This document shows positions 57,060 through 64,000 of a DNA stretch of 64,000 bases, piece after piece. The notes beneath the pieces were generated by a model. The model did not search any database. It had not been told where the DNA came from and saw nothing but the letters and a program-made list of their open reading frames with translations. A program made the translations under genes and the position numbers. This stretch comes from Bifidobacterium eulemuris (GTDB lineage: Bacteria; Actinomycetota; Actinomycetes; Actinomycetales; Bifidobacteriaceae), in NCBI RefSeq assembly GCF_014898155.1, contig NZ_CP062938.1:2728001-2792000 (forward strand), given 5' to 3'. Position 1 is the first letter of the stretch. Each line of letters opens with the position of its first letter.

Positions 57060-57956
57060 TTACTTGCCGATCTCGGCGAGATAGTCGGGCATGGTGTCGG
57101 GGTACTCCGGCCACGCGCCGGCCTGGGTGCACACGTAGGCGGCGGTGTTGACCGCGCGGCGGTGGGCCTCGGTGAGGGGTTCGCCCGCGAGGATGTGCGC
57201 GGTGAAGGTTCCGGAGAAGGAATCGCCGGCGCCCACCGTGTCGGTGACCGTGACATGCGGGGTGTCCACGGTGGAGGACTCGCCCTTCTTGGACAGGATG
57301 GTGCTGTAGGCGCTGCCCGCGGTCAGGATCACGTAATCGAGGTCGAACTCCTCGATGAACCAGCGCCCAGCGTCCTCGCCGGAGGTGCCGCGGATGTCGA
57401 ACATGTCGCGCAGCAGCAGCAGTTCCTCGTCGTTGATCTTGAGCACGGTGGCGGCGTTGAGCAGCTCCTCGATAAGCTCCTTGGAATAGTGGTCGCCGCG
57501 CAGGTTGATGTCGAAGAACTTCATGGCGCCCGGCTTGGTGTGCTTGAGCAGCTCGGTGATGGTGTCGTGCGATTCGGGGGAGCGCAGGGCCAGGGTGCCG
57601 AAGCACACGGCGTCGGCCTTGGCGACCACGTCGATGAGCTCGCGGGTGTAGAGGATGTGGTCCCAAGCGACGCCCTTGACGATGGTGTATTCCGGAATGC
57701 CGTTCTTGAGCGACACCTCGACGGTGGAGGTCGGCCAGGCGTTGCGCTGGATGATGGTGTGGATGCCGGCCTTCTTGGCCTCCTCGAGCAGCTCGTCGCC
57801 GAGCTCATCCTCGCCGACCGCGCTGATGGAGTAGCCGTCCGCGCCGTTCTTCATGGCATGGTAGGCGAAGTTGACCGGCGCGCCGCCCGCGCGCTTGCCG
57901 GTGGGGAGCATGTCCCACAGGAGTTCGCCGAGGCTCAGGACGATGGGGGTGGACAT
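57060..57956 (-). CDS. PfkB-family carbohydrate kinase, probable fructokinase
   Basis: A 298-residue ribokinase-fold kinase. The N-terminal SLGELLWDMLPTGKRAGGAPVNFAYHAMKNG is the fructokinase-like sugar-binding entry, and the C-terminal TVTDTVGAGDSFSGTFTAHIL contains the catalytic Asp of GAGD. Fructose is the most likely substrate by family (a fructokinase gene stands next to a ROK regulator in bifidobacteria, as I recall), but amino-sugar kinases share the fold. ATG at 57956 has AAAGGAACC upstream. It lies downstream of a ROK regulator (66-base gap) and may be controlled by it. Confidence 0.88.
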   Translation of the reverse strand: MSTPIVLSLGELLWDMLPTGKRAGGAPVNFAYHAMKNGADGYSISAVGEDELGDELLEEAKKAGIHTIIQRNAWPTSTVEVSLKNGIPEYTIVKGVAWDHILYTRELIDVVAKADAVCFGTLALRSPESHDTITELLKHTKPGAMKFFDINLRGDHYSKELIEELLNAATVLKINDEELLLLRDMFDIRGTSGEDAGRWFIEEFDLDYVILTAGSAYSTILSKKGESSTVDTPHVTVTDTVGAGDSFSGTFTAHILAGEPLTEAHRRAVNTAAYVCTQAGAWPEYPDTMPDYLAEIGK

Positions 57957-58022
57957 GGTGGGTTCCTTTCTGTGGAGGGGAGGATGTTGGGTTGTGAGGT
58001 TGCTGCCGACGGACACCCGGGA

Positions 58023-59243
58023 TTAGGTGACGTCGAAGAACACCGAGGGGTGTTCCAAAAACTGGGTGATGGCCACCGCCGCGGCGCCCGCCACGGCGGC
58101 GTCGGTGGACAGTCCGGACAGGGTGATGGTGGTGGAGTCGTTGAGTTCGGAGATCACGCGTTCGTCCACCACGCGGCGCACCTCGTTCAGCAGCGGCGCG
58201 CCCGCCTCGGATACGATGTCGCCGAGGACGATGTGGCTGGGGTTGAACGCGTTGAAGATGGTCACGCAACCGTATCCGACGAAGCGCGCGACCTGCCTGA
58301 GCAGGTGGTTGGCCGTCGCGTCTCCGGCGTCGCAGAGGGCGAACAGCGCCCGGCACGCCTCGGCGTGCGACATATCCGCCGAGCCGGGGATCAGTCCGTC
58401 CGTGGCGTTGACGAGTTCGTGGATGGCGCTGGCCGAGCAGTAGCGTTCCAGGCATCCGACGTTGCCGCAGTCGCAGGGCCTGCCGTTGACGTCGATGCTG
58501 ACATGGCCGATCTCCGTGGCGGCGCCGAGCGCGCCGTTGATGAGGTGGCCGTTGTCGATAGCGCCGAGCCCCACGCCTTCGCCCACGAGATAGTAGGCGA
58601 GATTGTTCGCGGCGATGTCGGGGTCGAACAGGTATTCGGCGAGCGCACCGGCGCGGGCGTCCTGTTCGAGGAACACGGGGACGCGGAAGGCGTCGGCGAA
58701 TTCGCGCAGGAAGTTGACTTTGCGCCATTCCTGCATGGAGGAGACGACGGCGATGCGTCCGATTCCACGCAGGTAGGGGCCGGGCACGGCCATGCCGACG
58801 GCCATGATGCGTTTGTCGTTGGCGAGCAGGTCGTTGACTTTGGTGTGGATGGTGGCGATGGTGTCCCAGACGGTGTCGTTGGACACGGTGGGCAGGTTGT
58901 CCAGGGAGAGCCGGTTGCCGGCGAGGTCGAATACGCCGATCTGCACCAGGCTGCGTGCGAATTTGACGCCGATGACGCGGAAGTGCGAGGTGTCGAGTTT
59001 GAGTCCGATGGAACGGCGGTTTTTGCTGCCTTCGATATCGCCGGTCTCTTTGATCACACCGGCTTCGATCAGGCGCGCGGTGATTTTCGTGATGGCCGCG
59101 GGGGTGAGCTCCAGCGCTTTGGCGATTTGCGCCCGGGAGCTGACGCCGTGGTGGTAGAGGTGCTGCAGGATGCGGGAACGGTTGGATTCGGAGATGGATG
59201 CCTGTGAGGCCGTGGTGTTGGCGGGTGTTGTGGCGTTCACCAT
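58023..59243 (-). CDS. ROK-family transcriptional regulator
   Basis: A 406-residue NagC/XylR-type regulator. The N-terminal winged helix (RILQHLYHHGVSSRAQIAKALELTPAAITKITARLIEAG, in part) is followed by the ROK sugar-binding domain with the zinc-site CDCGNVGCLERY and GVGLGAIDNGHLINGALGAATEIGH. Free sugar or phospho-sugar is the usual ligand. ATG at 59243 has AAGGAGGTTC directly upstream, while the longer frame to 59342 would run through the palindromic operator. It is the first gene of a ROK-kinase unit and probably autoregulates. Confidence 0.93.
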   Translation of the reverse strand: MVNATTPANTTASQASISESNRSRILQHLYHHGVSSRAQIAKALELTPAAITKITARLIEAGVIKETGDIEGSKNRRSIGLKLDTSHFRVIGVKFARSLVQIGVFDLAGNRLSLDNLPTVSNDTVWDTIATIHTKVNDLLANDKRIMAVGMAVPGPYLRGIGRIAVVSSMQEWRKVNFLREFADAFRVPVFLEQDARAGALAEYLFDPDIAANNLAYYLVGEGVGLGAIDNGHLINGALGAATEIGHVSIDVNGRPCDCGNVGCLERYCSASAIHELVNATDGLIPGSADMSHAEACRALFALCDAGDATANHLLRQVARFVGYGCVTIFNAFNPSHIVLGDIVSEAGAPLLNEVRRVVDERVISELNDSTTITLSGLSTDAAVAGAAAVAITQFLEHPSVFFDVT

Positions 59244-59291
59244 GAACCTCCTTGCTCCGTCGCGGGTGTGCTCGTGTCTTGTCCGCTCATC

Positions 59292-59354
59292 TTTGAATCT
59301 GAACTTGATTTGAATATTAACGCAGTTAATCAATAAACGCAATTAAGATTCAAA
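59292..59354. promoter_or_regulatory. ROK-type operator region
   Basis: TTTGAATCT (59292-59300) and AGATTCAAA (59346-59354) are exact inverted repeats. Between them ATTAACGCAGTTAAT (59316-59330) is a perfect palindrome with odd spacer, and a related ATAAACGCAATTAA lies at 59333-59346. The core ACGCA recurs 17 bases apart. This AT-rich island is 73-111 bases upstream of the ROK regulator start. Confidence 0.65.
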
Positions 59355-59449
59355 ATCGGCGTGTCGCCTAGGATATGCGACGTCGAGGGTGCGGGTGATT
59401 CGTTGAGAATGTGTGGCACCTCCAAGGCCGCGGTTCGCGTCGTTTGGGG

Positions 59450-60583
59450 TCATAGGCGCTTGATGTGCCGGTAGATCACGGCGACGGCCTCGCCTTGTAT
59501 GGTGATGTCGTCGCCGCACTGTCCGCGACGCACCAGGGTTCGTTCCCGCCATGTCGAATCGGTGGTTTGGTCGAGGTGGCTTTGGAGCGCGTCGATGAAC
59601 CCGTCGTTGATGATGTCGGCGGGGCCGTACACGCATACGTCGCCCAGGTCGAACATGCCGATCGGCATCGCAAGCGCCTGTCCTAGCCGGCGCGCCGCCT
59701 CCGCCAGGATGTCGGCGTGCGCGTCCGGCGGGCTGTCGTGCAGCTGCGAGTAGATGACCGGCGCCGAGGTGAGCCGTTCCAGGCAGCCTCGTTTGCCGCA
59801 CGGACAGGGCGGTCCCTGCGGTTCGAGCGAGATGTGGGCGATCTCTCCGGCCGCGTGGTTCTCGCCGATCACGACGGTGTCGTCGACCAGGATGGCGGAT
59901 CCGATGCCTCTGCGCACGCGCACGAACAGAAGGTTGGGTCCTCCCTGTCCGAAGAACCGCTCCGCCATCATGGCGGCGATGGCGTCGTTGTCGACCGTCA
60001 CCGGCAGGTCGAAACGACGTTCTATCGGGGTTTTCAGGTCGAGATCGCGCCAGCCGAGATTGGTCGAGGCATGCACCACGCCGTCGTCGTCCACGATGCC
60101 CGGGGTGGCGATGCCGATGCCGATGATGCGGCCGTCGGGTTTCGGCAACGCCTCGATGGCCTCGCAGATGGTGTCGACGGTGATCTGCTGTCCGTCCAGC
60201 ACGGCGGCCTCCGCGTGGGCCAAGGGGCGGCCCAACAGATCGGTGACGGCGGCGCGGATGAGATGCGCCTGGGAGAGGTCGACGCTGATCGCGCGCAGCC
60301 GGTCGGCGTCGATGCTGAGCAGTGTGCCGCGTTTGCCTTTGGAATGGCTCGGCGCCTGGCCGACTTCGCGGATCAATCCTTCGTCGAGCATTTCGCTGAC
60401 CACGTCGGAGACGGCCACACGGCTCAGTCCGGTACGCCGTCCGATTTCGGCGCGGGAGAGCCTGCCGTCCGGGAAGAGCAGGGAGAAGATCAGCGTGCGG
60501 TTGTTGCGCCGCGCGTCGGCGGGCCCGGCTTTGGACGGCTTGCCGAAAGCGTAGCCGCTGAGCTCCGTGGTCGGTCGCTGCAT
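59450..60583 (-). CDS. ROK-family transcriptional regulator (second)
   Basis: A 377-residue protein of the same family. The winged helix (LIFSLLFPDGRLSRAEIGRRTGLSRVAVSDVVSEMLDEG, in part) and the ROK domain with CPCGKRGCLERL and NDAIAAMMAERFFGQGG are recognisable. Bifidobacterial nagB-nagA operons are commonly beside a NagR-type ROK regulator, so this may be that regulator. It is divergent from the GH136-like pair (194-base gap), making that operon a plausible target. It has GGGAG upstream of ATG 60583. Confidence 0.92.
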   Translation of the reverse strand: MQRPTTELSGYAFGKPSKAGPADARRNNRTLIFSLLFPDGRLSRAEIGRRTGLSRVAVSDVVSEMLDEGLIREVGQAPSHSKGKRGTLLSIDADRLRAISVDLSQAHLIRAAVTDLLGRPLAHAEAAVLDGQQITVDTICEAIEALPKPDGRIIGIGIATPGIVDDDGVVHASTNLGWRDLDLKTPIERRFDLPVTVDNDAIAAMMAERFFGQGGPNLLFVRVRRGIGSAILVDDTVVIGENHAAGEIAHISLEPQGPPCPCGKRGCLERLTSAPVIYSQLHDSPPDAHADILAEAARRLGQALAMPIGMFDLGDVCVYGPADIINDGFIDALQSHLDQTTDSTWRERTLVRRGQCGDDITIQGEAVAVIYRHIKRL

Positions 60584-60777: not shown

Positions 60778-61515
60778 GTGGCTGATGAGGGTGTGATGGC
60801 CGAATCGGCTGCATGGCCGGGTTCGCAAGGCGGCCGTGCGGCGCTGTTCGCTCTGGGAGGGCGTGTGGTGGGGGAGGAGGAGTTCCTGTTCGCTCTGGGG
60901 CGCGAACGCCATGCGACGCAGGCCTATTTCCGACGCCGGTATGACGCCGATCTGGGGTATGGATTCTGGCGGGCGTCCTTTGGCGGGGAGTCGGTCGCGC
61001 AGTATGCGGCCCGTCGCGCCGTGGACCGGTTGCGCCATCTGCACGCGTTCTATGAGGTGGCCGCCGGCGCGCGTTTGGTGGACGGGGTCGATTTCGCGTC
61101 CGCCAAGCGGCGCTGGGCGGCGTGCAACGTGCGGCTGGAACGTGCCGTGCGGGCGGGGGAGCCGGTGTATGGACTGTCCCGATATGATTTCGCCACGTAC
61201 CTGACGCATGAGATGGCGGCTCTTGAGGAACGCTACTGCTCCGATCCCTCGCTGTCGGGCATGGCGGTCGGGGACGACGAGGCCGAGCGTTTCTTCCGAA
61301 GCGGGTCGTGGACGGTCGACGGGCGTGGGGCGGGGTTCGCCGAAGTGCGCGCGCATGTCGTGGCGGAATTGAGAAAACAGAAATTTGTGAATATAGTTAA
61401 CAATTGTGCGGACGCCATCGTCGTCGAAGGCGTCCGGTGGCGTGCGCTGCAAGCGCTCGTCGAGCGGACCGCCATGGCCTCCACGAAGGGAGGCCGATCC
61501 CAGCCAGCCAAGTAG
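60778..61515 (+). CDS. Probable GH136 chaperone-like subunit (LnbY/GH136-I-like)
   Basis: A 245-residue, predicted mostly helical, cytoplasmic protein with no signal peptide. It is Arg/Ala-rich with AHLHAFYEVAAGA-like helices, a YDFATYLTHEMAALEERYC segment and a C-terminal FAEVRAHVVAELRKQKFVNIVNN, vaguely similar to SurA/parvulin-type chaperone helices. Alone it would be 'unknown'. The reason for the call is its size and place: eight bases before a beta-helix enzyme gene, as in GH136 lacto-N-biosidases, which need a dedicated ~225-residue chaperone subunit. The GTG start has AAGGAGG at 60766-60772. The region from about 61380 is AT-richer. Confidence in the gene is high, in the function moderate. 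Confidence 0.6.
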   Translation: MADEGVMAESAAWPGSQGGRAALFALGGRVVGEEEFLFALGRERHATQAYFRRRYDADLGYGFWRASFGGESVAQYAARRAVDRLRHLHAFYEVAAGARLVDGVDFASAKRRWAACNVRLERAVRAGEPVYGLSRYDFATYLTHEMAALEERYCSDPSLSGMAVGDDEAERFFRSGSWTVDGRGAGFAEVRAHVVAELRKQKFVNIVNNCADAIVVEGVRWRALQALVERTAMASTKGGRSQPAK

Positions 61516-61523
61516 GAGAGCAC

Positions 61524-63194
61524 ATGTTGTATTACGTCTCGTCCGATGTCGACCCCGATGCGACCAACGACGGTCTGAGCGAAGACGCCCCGTTCGGCAG
61601 CCTTGAACGCATCGGCGACATCGAGCTCGGTCCCGGAGACCAGGTGTTGCTCAAGCGTGGGTCGATATTCAATGACCAGGCGCTGCACATCAAAGAGGGC
61701 AGTTCGGGCAGCGAGGACGCCCCGATCCGCATCGCCGCCTACGGCGAGGGCGCCGCCCCCGTCATCAACGCCAATGGGCGCGGCCAGTGGCTTGAGGACT
61801 ACAACACCACCGAAATCGGCGGGCATCGGTACCGTGCCGTCATCTCCACGGCGCTGCTGCTCAAGGACGTGCGCTACGTCGAGGTGGAAGGGCTGGAGAT
61901 CACCAACAGCCGCGAGCTGGGCAATCCCGATGGACTGGCCTACAACGACCGCGACGCCATGAACCGCACCGGCGTGGCCGTGATCGCCGAAAACGCGGGA
62001 ACGCTGCGGCATATCGTGCTCACCGGACTGAATATCCACGACGTGACCGGCAATGTCTACGACAAGCATCTGGCCAACGGCGGCGTGTACTTCATCGCGC
62101 ACTACCCCAAGGATCCCTCGCGTAGGGAGACGTCCATCGCCCGCTTCGACGACGTGCGCATCGTCGGCAACCGGCTGGACACCGTGGGCCGCTGGGGCAT
62201 CGCCGTGGGATACACCGCCTACCTCAACGAGCTGGACGCCGACGACTACGGCGACGGCACCATCGACGACGCGGCGATCGCGCGGTATGGCCACACCAAT
62301 GTGCTCGTCGAGAACAACTACGTCAAGGACGCCGGCGGCGACGCCATCACCGTGATGTACTGCGACCGTCCGCTGGTGCAATACAACGTGGCCCAAGGGG
62401 CGGCGAGGCAGGTGAACGACGCCGACTACACCGCCACCGACTTCGGCAAGGTGGCCGCCGGCATCTGGCCATGGCGCTGCAAGAACGCCCTGTTCCAATA
62501 CAATGAGGTGTTCCATATGCGCAACGGCGCGCACGGCAACGACGACGGCCAGGCGTGGGACGCCGACTACGGCGACGGCACGCTGTACCAGTACAACTAT
62601 TCGCACGGCAACACCGGCGGCACGGTGATGTTCTGCATGGGCAAATCCGTGAACAACACCTTCCGCTACAACATCGCGCAGGGCGATCTCAAAGGCGCCA
62701 TCGACATCCCGGACAATCCCGACGCGCATGTGTACCAGAACACCTTCGTCATCCCCGAAGGCGGCACGGTTGTCCGCGACAACCACGTCGGCGGGCACGC
62801 CGTCGTGGAGAACAACATCTTCTACAACGCGCAGGACCATGCCGTCGAGGGCAATTGGACGCAGGGCGGTTCGCCGGTGACCTACTCGAACAACCTCTAC
62901 TACCATTTCGCCGACATGCCGGACGATCCGGACGGCATCGCCGTGCCGCAGGGCGTGGCGGTGCTGCGCGACCCGGGCAGCGCGCCGACGTCCCCCGATC
63001 CGAGCGGCTTGGTCCGCCCGCACGGCGATCCCGAGACCCGCACCGTGTTCGAGGGCTACCGACCGGTCGCGCAGGGGCCCGCCATGGGTGTGGCGAAGCG
63101 AATCGTCGACCACAACGGCTTCGCGCCGGACAAGGATTTCCTCGGCAACGAGGCGGCCGGGGGCAATGCCGTCGGCGCCATCGTCGTGCCGTAG
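61524..63194 (+). CDS. Right-handed parallel beta-helix enzyme, probable cytoplasmic GH136-like glycosidase
   Basis: A 556-residue protein made of repeated beta-helix coils (NILVENNYVKDAGGDAI-, VQYNVAQGAA-, FQYNEVFHMRNGAHG-, YQYNYSHGNTGG-like turns). It starts MLYYVSSDVDPDATNDG with no signal peptide or anchor. The motif DDGQAWDAD gives Asp341 and Asp348, seven residues apart, matching the Asp pair of GH136 lacto-N-biosidase (Asp411/Asp418 in LnbX, as I recall). Size and gene order (chaperone-like gene just upstream) also fit. If right, it cleaves lacto-N-biose- or GlcNAc-containing oligosaccharides inside the cell, upstream of nagB. Alternatives are a pectate-lyase-like lyase or another beta-helix hydrolase. 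GGAG precedes the ATG. Confidence 0.65.
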   Translation: MLYYVSSDVDPDATNDGLSEDAPFGSLERIGDIELGPGDQVLLKRGSIFNDQALHIKEGSSGSEDAPIRIAAYGEGAAPVINANGRGQWLEDYNTTEIGGHRYRAVISTALLLKDVRYVEVEGLEITNSRELGNPDGLAYNDRDAMNRTGVAVIAENAGTLRHIVLTGLNIHDVTGNVYDKHLANGGVYFIAHYPKDPSRRETSIARFDDVRIVGNRLDTVGRWGIAVGYTAYLNELDADDYGDGTIDDAAIARYGHTNVLVENNYVKDAGGDAITVMYCDRPLVQYNVAQGAARQVNDADYTATDFGKVAAGIWPWRCKNALFQYNEVFHMRNGAHGNDDGQAWDADYGDGTLYQYNYSHGNTGGTVMFCMGKSVNNTFRYNIAQGDLKGAIDIPDNPDAHVYQNTFVIPEGGTVVRDNHVGGHAVVENNIFYNAQDHAVEGNWTQGGSPVTYSNNLYYHFADMPDDPDGIAVPQGVAVLRDPGSAPTSPDPSGLVRPHGDPETRTVFEGYRPVAQGPAMGVAKRIVDHNGFAPDKDFLGNEAAGGNAVGAIVVP

Positions 63195-63323
63195 CGACGC
63201 GGTGCCGCGTGGGCCGTCGCGTGGGCGGCGTGCGATGGTCCATGGTGGGCGTATACTCGAATATGACAAGGAAGTTAACGAAAAAAGAGGCTCCTGTTCG
63301 GGCACCTCTTGAAAGGGTAGAAC

Positions 63324-64000
63324 ATGCCAGAAGTCATTATTGTCAAGAACGAAGCCGAAGCCGGCGAGATCTACGCCCGGGCGGTGGCCGACCTCATCAA
63401 ATCCAAGCCGGACGCCGTGCTGGGCCTGGCCACCGGATCGAGCCCCCTGGCCGCCTATCAGGCGTTGGCCAAAACGGTGAAGGACGAGGCCATCGATATG
63501 AGCCGCGTGCGCGGTTTCGCGCTCGACGAGTATATCGGCCTGCCGCTGAGCCATCCGGAGTCCTACCACAGCACCATCCACCGCACGGTGGTCGAGCCGC
63601 TGGGAATGAACCCCGATCTGGTGCATGTGCCGGGCGACGTGCTGGACGGCGCGCCGCTTGAGGACGGCGACAAGCTCGCCCACGCCGGTGCCGACTACGA
63701 CGCCGCGATCGAAGCCGCCGGCGGCATCGACGTGCAGATCCTGGGCATCGGCACCGACGGCCATGTGGGATTCAACGAGCCCGGCTCGTCGCTGGCCTCC
63801 GGCACGCGCATCAAAACGCTGGTCGAGCAGACCCGCGTCGACAACGCCCGCTTCTTCGACGACGATATCGACCAGGTGCCCACGCACTGCATCACCCAGG
63901 GCATCGGCACGATCATGCGCGCCCGTCATCTGGTGCTGCTCGCGTTCGGCGCGGGCAAGGCCGAGGCCGTCGCGCAGACCTGCGAGGGCGGCGTGAGCGC
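63324..64000 (+). CDS. nagB: Glucosamine-6-phosphate deaminase (3' end cut by window edge)
   Basis: The N-terminal ~225 residues of the isomerase/deaminase that converts glucosamine 6-phosphate to fructose 6-phosphate and ammonia. LGLATGSSPLAAYQALA (phosphate loop), FALDEYIGLPLSHPESY with the catalytic Asp and LGIGTDGHVGFNEPGSSLAS with the catalytic His are present. The frame is open to the end of the window; about 45 residues are missing. ATG at 63324 has GAAAGGG upstream. It follows the GH136-like gene by 129 bases on the same strand, so read-through from that operon is possible. nagA is expected to follow. Confidence 0.96.
   Translation, partial: MPEVIIVKNEAEAGEIYARAVADLIKSKPDAVLGLATGSSPLAAYQALAKTVKDEAIDMSRVRGFALDEYIGLPLSHPESYHSTIHRTVVEPLGMNPDLVHVPGDVLDGAPLEDGDKLAHAGADYDAAIEAAGGIDVQILGIGTDGHVGFNEPGSSLASGTRIKTLVEQTRVDNARFFDDDIDQVPTHCITQGIGTIMRARHLVLLAFGAGKAEAVAQTCEGGVS

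Follow-up and report, generated by a model that had tools for sequence, protein, structure and literature searches.

GH136 enzymes have been described with several arrangements of the catalytic part and its partner. The bifidobacterial examples, LnbX/LnbY of Bifidobacterium longum (5gqc) and BsaX of B. saguini (7v6i), are long and have signal-like segments, and LnbY also has a membrane segment. ErLnb136 of Eubacterium ramulus (6kqs/6kqt) carries its GH136-I and GH136-II parts in one chain, and TnX of Tyzzerella nexilis (7v6m) may be a larger multidomain protein, to judge by its name in the PDB (fibronectin type III domain-containing protein). According to passages of PMC7335108, RhLnb136I and RhLnb136II of Roseburia hominis, neither of which has a signal peptide or transmembrane domain, show activity only on co-expression, and their locus includes an ATP-binding cassette (ABC) transporter and GH112. 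In this study, we analyzed two adjacent genes, one lnbY-like and one lnbX-like, in a 64,000-nucleotide stretch of the B. eulemuris genome (the window; positions 2,728,001 to 2,792,000 of NZ_CP062938.1, a single contig of 2,920,839 bases). We consider it likely that their products make up a cytosolic two-chain GH136 glycosidase, and the activity predicted from their sequences is most likely that of a lacto-N-biosidase.

The window pair resembles RhLnb136I/II, a likeness which is based on the published description, in having two separate chains without export signals, encoded by adjacent genes, with an ABC transporter and regulators at the locus and GH112 in the genome. However, GH112 is part of the same locus in R. 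hominis, as described in those passages, whereas the window pair adjoins nagB-nagA and GH20 and the GH112 gene is found in a separate lnp-type cluster. By analogy, we regard the pair as the same kind of system as RhLnb136I/II, the new elements being the host lineage and the gene context. A preliminary description of this DNA had proposed that such a pair, if intracellular, would stand as a system of its own, a view which is not supported in the light of the R. hominis precedent (same passages of PMC7335108). Unlike LnbX/LnbY and BsaX, the window pair has the catalytic domain only, has none of the signal-like or membrane segments, and belongs to a separate tree group. As in ErLnb136, both a GH136-I and a GH136-II part are represented, and the small window protein aligns with GH136-I; however, ErLnb136 is fused in one chain, and its catalytic part does not have the last ~120 residues found in the window protein.

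A GH136 catalytic chain and an LnbY-like partner

The preliminary description had recognized two open reading frames with their sizes, an eight-base gap between them, and D341 and D348 of the larger product in a DDGQAWDAD motif. All of these were recovered, with both genes on the plus strand and the motif at residues 340-348 (Table 1). The large protein had been assigned to GH136 and the small one likened to LnbY or GH136-I, and profile searches with hidden Markov models agree with both assignments. The lnbX product matched the NCBIfam LnbX model NF047897 with E 2e-171 over profile positions 46-637 of 1498, and the lnbY product is homologous to LnbY, matching NF047894 with E 1.1e-43 across residues 24-226. 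Among solved structures, the lnbX product matched TnX (7v6m; E 4.1e-165, 48% identity) and LnbX (5gqc; E 1.1e-156, residues 20-595 of 5gqc on query residues 3-553). Similarity to characterized GH136 enzymes thus covers its whole catalytic domain, and its nearest solved relatives have about 48% identity. The sequence evidence places the pair far beyond chance, because the family E-values are 1e-43 and 2e-171 and the order of the two genes is retained in B. lemurum.

The lnbX product is a right-handed beta-helix that superposes on LnbX, which bears out the fold expected for it. Pfam returned only generic beta-helix families for this protein (PF13229, E 6.6e-6), a result which would also suit a beta-helical polysaccharide lyase or epimerase. 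We give that identity almost no credence; it was ruled out by the sequence matches to 7v6m and 5gqc together with the structure comparison, in which GH136 scored far above lyases.

The catalytic residues of ErLnb136 are named in section 8 of PMC7335108, and alignment to this enzyme identifies the Asp acid/base and the Asp nucleophile of the lnbX product, seven residues apart, as D341 and D348, the very pair that had been singled out before. D341, D348, W315, W317, W345, and D346 are identical in 52 of 52 alignment rows, and Q343 in 51 of 52. The best Foldseek match of the lnbY product was ErLnb136, on its GH136-I part, on which it superposed with 2.2 A over 130 residues. Its predicted model is mostly helical, like that domain and as had been anticipated. 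Neither of the outcomes that the preliminary description had named as refuting it, a lyase or epimerase identity of the large protein or a small protein unlike GH136-I in structure, was borne out.

GH136 lineages in Bifidobacterium

A GH136-like match, weak ones included, was found in 31 of 112 Bifidobacterium genomes. LnbY matches occurred in nine of the 112: those of B. eulemuris and B. lemurum and seven others, which have long LnbX. A passage of a review, which makes its comparison with B. breve and B. infantis, states that lnbX homologues are absent from other Bifidobacterium species (PMC10629584). The tree of GH136 proteins is unrooted and comprises 52 rows, the interrupted B. oedipodis gene (L073) being left out, and it has to be read with the long branches of L089, L091, and P0035 and the odd composition of nine rows, several of them lnp-linked, in mind. 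Three groups stand apart in it: the long LnbX proteins (7 rows, support 100/99), the lemur group (4 rows, 100/100), and the lnp-linked proteins (13 rows, 100/100). The long LnbX group adjoins a Coriobacteriaceae protein, and the link of the lemur group to a Varibaculum/Tissierella group is only weak (82/87). The idea that the pair is bifidobacterial LnbX minus its signal peptide is unsupported, since the lemur and long LnbX groups are separate in this unrooted tree.

Several other GH136 loci came to light in these searches. In B. oedipodis (L050/L073), a long lnbX-type gene is broken by a stop codon, no LnbY was found in the genome, and a short lnp-linked GH136 is present. Varibaculum cambriense has two GH136 copies: the first (L062), of ~570 amino acids, is directly downstream of a gene which by eye is N-acetylhexosamine kinase-like, with no LnbY within 8 kb, and the second (L074) has an adjoining LnbY. 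An operon-like row in L116 (4634-11679; G042) contains genes for a solute-binding protein (SBP), permeases, a 344-amino-acid weakly LnbY-like protein with a membrane-like segment, a protein of 1148 amino acids, and GH112. The 1148-amino-acid protein is secreted-looking and about 29% identical to the window GH136, and it could represent a sister family of GH136. Long proteins at L023-L026 and L030 are 35-38% identical to the window GH136 over the matched stretch and have D-x6-D motifs such as DGTAWDFD and DGEAFDID; judging from these features, they possibly constitute a further GH136-like family.

Predicted location

Neither chain had been thought to have a signal peptide, and the pair had been proposed to work inside the cell. 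We judged location by hydropathy only, with no trained signal-peptide predictor. Within the first 60 residues, the highest Kyte-Doolittle mean over 15 residues was 0.88 for the lnbY product and 0.26 for the lnbX product. By the same measure, five other lemur-group chains (P0003, P0004, P0124, P0125, and P0126) gave 0.45-1.43, and six secreted LnbX/LnbY homologues gave 2.15-3.43 near their N-termini, three long LnbX entries being read from unverified starts and used only for the presence of a hydrophobic segment. The lnbY product thus lacks a signal or transmembrane segment by hydropathy, and the lnbX product has no hydrophobic N-terminal segment, anchor, or extra domain, its chain ending with the catalytic domain. 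These values support the earlier prediction of a cytosolic pair.

An extracellular role of the pair, by way of an unrecognized export route or of a start codon further upstream, is very unlikely, even though the seven long bifidobacterial LnbX rows of the tree are open frames of >1600 residues and the three tested have signal-like segments. No segment of comparable hydrophobicity is found in either chain of the pair or in the five other lemur-group chains, and there is neither an anchor nor an extra domain. An alternative upstream TTG start of lnbX would fall within lnbY and add only 40 mostly polar residues.

Genetic context and conservation

A divergent ROK regulator upstream, nagB downstream, and an amino-sugar context had been noted for the pair, and matches to PF00480 and to the nagB model confirm this setting (Table 1). 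After nagB in L002 follow nagA, a lipoprotein SBP (L002 5763-7082), two permeases, ROK, and GH20, so that the cluster order reads ROK / lnbY-lnbX-nagB-nagA-SBP-permeases-ROK-GH20. Adjoining the pair, the minus strand carries a row of genes at 57060-60583 for two ROK regulators and a PfkB-type sugar kinase, an arrangement kept in B. lemurum. B. lemurum (L044) has the whole order: all 12 genes from the cluster and its flank that served as queries were found there, with identities of 84% for LnbY, 95% for LnbX, 99% for nagB, 98% for nagA, and 99% for the SBP.

Table 1. Coordinates in the window of the GH136 gene pair, its active-site codons, and flanking genes
Feature	Position	Strand	Remarks
lnbY-like gene (GH136-I / chaperone-type subunit)	60778..61515	+	245 aa; GTG start after AAGGAGG-type site
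lnbX-like gene (GH136 catalytic beta-helix subunit)	61524..63194	+	556 aa; ATG start; catalytic domain only
W317 codon of lnbX	62472..62474	+	Aligned with galactose (lacto-N-biose)-stacking Trp of ErLnb136 (W548, offset read by the authors)
D341 codon of lnbX	62544..62546	+	Aligned with acid/base D568 of ErLnb136
D348 codon of lnbX	62565..62567	+	Aligned with nucleophile D575 of ErLnb136
Divergent ROK-family regulator (NagC/NagR-like)	59450..60583	-	377 aa; PF00480 E 3.4e-36; NF047937 NagC 135 bits, below cut-off 650
Second ROK-family regulator	58023..59342	-	Start codon uncertain; PF00480 E 4e-53
nagB	63324..64000	+	Runs beyond window end; complete in L002 3324-4136; PRK00443.1-4 331 bits, cut-off 326

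In the comparison with B. lemurum, the ratio of nonsynonymous to synonymous substitution rates (dN/dS) was 0.15 for lnbX, 0.016-0.13 for five compared neighbors, and 0.37 for lnbY, the highest of the seven genes. The ratios of both genes of the pair point to purifying selection. The value for lnbY, above those of the six other genes, would suit decay of the LnbX-like pair into a functionless relic in these species, and part of PMC11206791 reports that B. bifidum LnbX/LnbY are thought to be non-functional owing to missing signal peptides. We regard decay as highly improbable here, given that both frames are open in two species, that close relatives occur in other sources, and that lnbX combines its low ratio with retained catalytic residues.

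Scanning 2.9 kb on both strands yielded two promoter-like sites, against 0.3 in shuffled sequences. One of them is within the 3' end of lnbY (61369..61397, plus strand; 10 of 12 matches) and overlaps a GTTAAC palindrome at 61396; it could give lnbX a promoter of its own and is offered as a lead only. GTTAAC also occurs before nagB (at 63274) and ahead of the lnp SBP gene, and the sites in lnbY and before nagB are both kept in B. lemurum. This too is a lead only; the window has four copies, and 7.3 would be expected from a zero-order model. When 15 promoter regions were scanned for palindromes with a NagR operator in mind, none was common to the set, and the only shared one was in the SBP promoters of the two sister genomes.

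Proposed pathway and alternative substrates

We propose that the ABC transporter of this cluster or that of the lnp cluster would import lacto-N-tetraose (LNT) or a related type-1 chain, and that the pair would cleave LNT to lacto-N-biose and lactose. The beta-helix chain (LnbX type) would carry the retaining Asp/Asp active site, and the helical chain (LnbY/GH136-I type) would be required for its folding and probably remains attached to it. The GH112 of the lnp cluster would then convert lacto-N-biose to galactose 1-phosphate and N-acetylglucosamine (GlcNAc), and any amino sugar arriving as GlcNAc-6-phosphate would pass through the adjacent nagA and nagB. A NagR-type ROK regulator probably keeps the genes repressed in the absence of GlcNAc compounds; regulation of this kind is described in passages of PMC9599254. 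The genome has one GH112 gene, which is away from the pair in a separate lnp-type cluster of an SBP, two permeases, and GH112, followed by nahK-, lnpC-, and galE-like genes (names besides GH112 were given by reading the proteins). The preliminary description had the pair feeding GlcNAc or glucosamine 6-phosphate to nagBA. Its amino-sugar context stands, but a direct feed does not, because phosphorolysis would come first and GH112 is elsewhere in the genome.

Several results weigh against this assignment, in addition to the dN/dS of lnbY. The lnbX product scored 572.8 bits against an LnbX equivalog cut-off of 2500 in NF047897, which models the secreted protein at full length; the lnbY product scored 149.9 bits against 400 in NF047894. 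By VIA-align, the lnbY product was no closer to the Eubacterium GH136-I than to SurA-type chaperones. Its sequence link to that domain was weak (E 0.052), and in this weak alignment the active-site residue Y145 of ErLnb136, which reaches over from GH136-I, had no clear counterpart. The cluster SBP resembles many sugar-binding proteins: 513 PDB sequences matched at E 0.001 or better, none stood out among the best 60 of these 513, and 2z8d, which binds galacto-N-biose/lacto-N-biose, was among the weaker matches. Moreover, SBP relatives occur in 32 of 112 genomes, 30 of which do not have this pair. A specific LNT transporter in this cluster is thus unsupported, the SBP matches being unspecific and its relatives widespread.

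LNT may also be used by another route. The genome has five GH42 genes, one of which (L111, the only one compared with PDB) matched 8ibr, 8ibt, and 8ibs with 1365-1370 bits, entries which we take to be BiBga42A. Because the genome holds a GH42 closely matching beta-galactosidases of the BiBga42A kind, an alternative cytosolic route is predicted, and the pair would not be needed for LNT use. Homologues of BiBga42A are listed for B. eulemuris and B. lemurum in part of PMC10688820.

The pair could also be cytosolic GH136 with another substrate, namely fucosylated type-1 chains, as for RiLea/b136, or type-1 chains of mucin or glycolipids. A Lewis a/b-specific enzyme is already present in GH136, according to passages of PMC7335108, the lemur group is a lineage apart from LnbX, and the identity to the nearest solved relatives is about 48%. 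However, two loops whose shortening is linked to Lewis specificity in the same passages are within 1-2 residues of their lengths in ErLnb136, as compared by eye with that enzyme only, and the Gal-stacking Trp and the catalytic motif are retained. We therefore consider a substrate other than LNT unlikely and retain lacto-N-biosidase as the predicted activity.

A short GH136 group beside lnp clusters

The lnp-linked GH136 gene has the lnp SBP and GH112 genes as neighbors at all 13 loci, which come from 11 Bifidobacterium species and two Alloscardovia (L045-L048, L051-L055, L088, L091, L094, and L095). The proteins are mostly about 484-505 residues long; the frames of B. choloepi and B. dolichotidis are longer, and several starts are unsure. 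Six were tested, and none had a signal-like segment (hydropathy 0.17-1.27). They share the catalytic motif with the window protein, and identity to it is 51-58% in the nine aligned and, over the best-matching segments, 44-55% across the 13 loci. They differ from it in a C-terminus about 85 residues shorter in the aligned ones, in their separate tree group, and in their position beside the lnp operon.

The LnbY profile found no partner within about 8 kb at any of the 13 loci, and none in the whole genomes of the 11 Bifidobacterium (best chance matches E 0.056 and 0.23); the two Alloscardovia were covered by locus only, and a divergent partner like that of Eubacterium could escape this profile. 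The same profile finds LnbY at 20 of 24 other loci, as far as Helcococcus, the four misses being L062 (Varibaculum copy 1), L073 (the interrupted gene), and L089 and L093 (short contigs). We suggest that there are three bifidobacterial GH136 lineages, the third of which (~490 residues, lnp-linked, no signal-like segment) would be active without LnbY/GH136-I and cut imported LNT, a proposal to which we give an even chance.

The lnp-linked group could also be considered a replacement for GH42, but this fits only partially. Among the 11 lnp-linked Bifidobacterium genomes, GH42 compares with L111 at 68-83% in three (G053, G056, and G103), at 62% in three (G018, G022, and G038), and at only 47-49% in two (G023 and G044), and just three (G027, G029, and G061) have no GH42 match at E 1e-200. 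We found no published description of the window pair or of the lnp-linked group in titles, abstract starts, and passages, a coverage which mostly excludes subscription journals. The partner-less lnp-linked group is the more interesting lead, with a stronger novelty than the window pair.

Implications

If the proposed function of the window pair is correct, lemur bifidobacteria would digest type-1 chains of milk or mucin by a "selfish" cytosolic lacto-N-biosidase, and lacto-N-biosidase in this genus would not solely be the extracellular tool described for B. longum. As a small two-chain GH136 that naturally has no signal or anchor, the pair is expected to be simpler to produce and to analyze as a complex than its secreted bifidobacterial counterpart. 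If the proposal for the lnp-linked group is correct, these GH136 enzymes would be active without the partner needed by those characterized in the literature cited here, beside the phosphorylase that consumes their product. This group makes the purpose of LnbY directly testable, as the same active site seemingly does without it.
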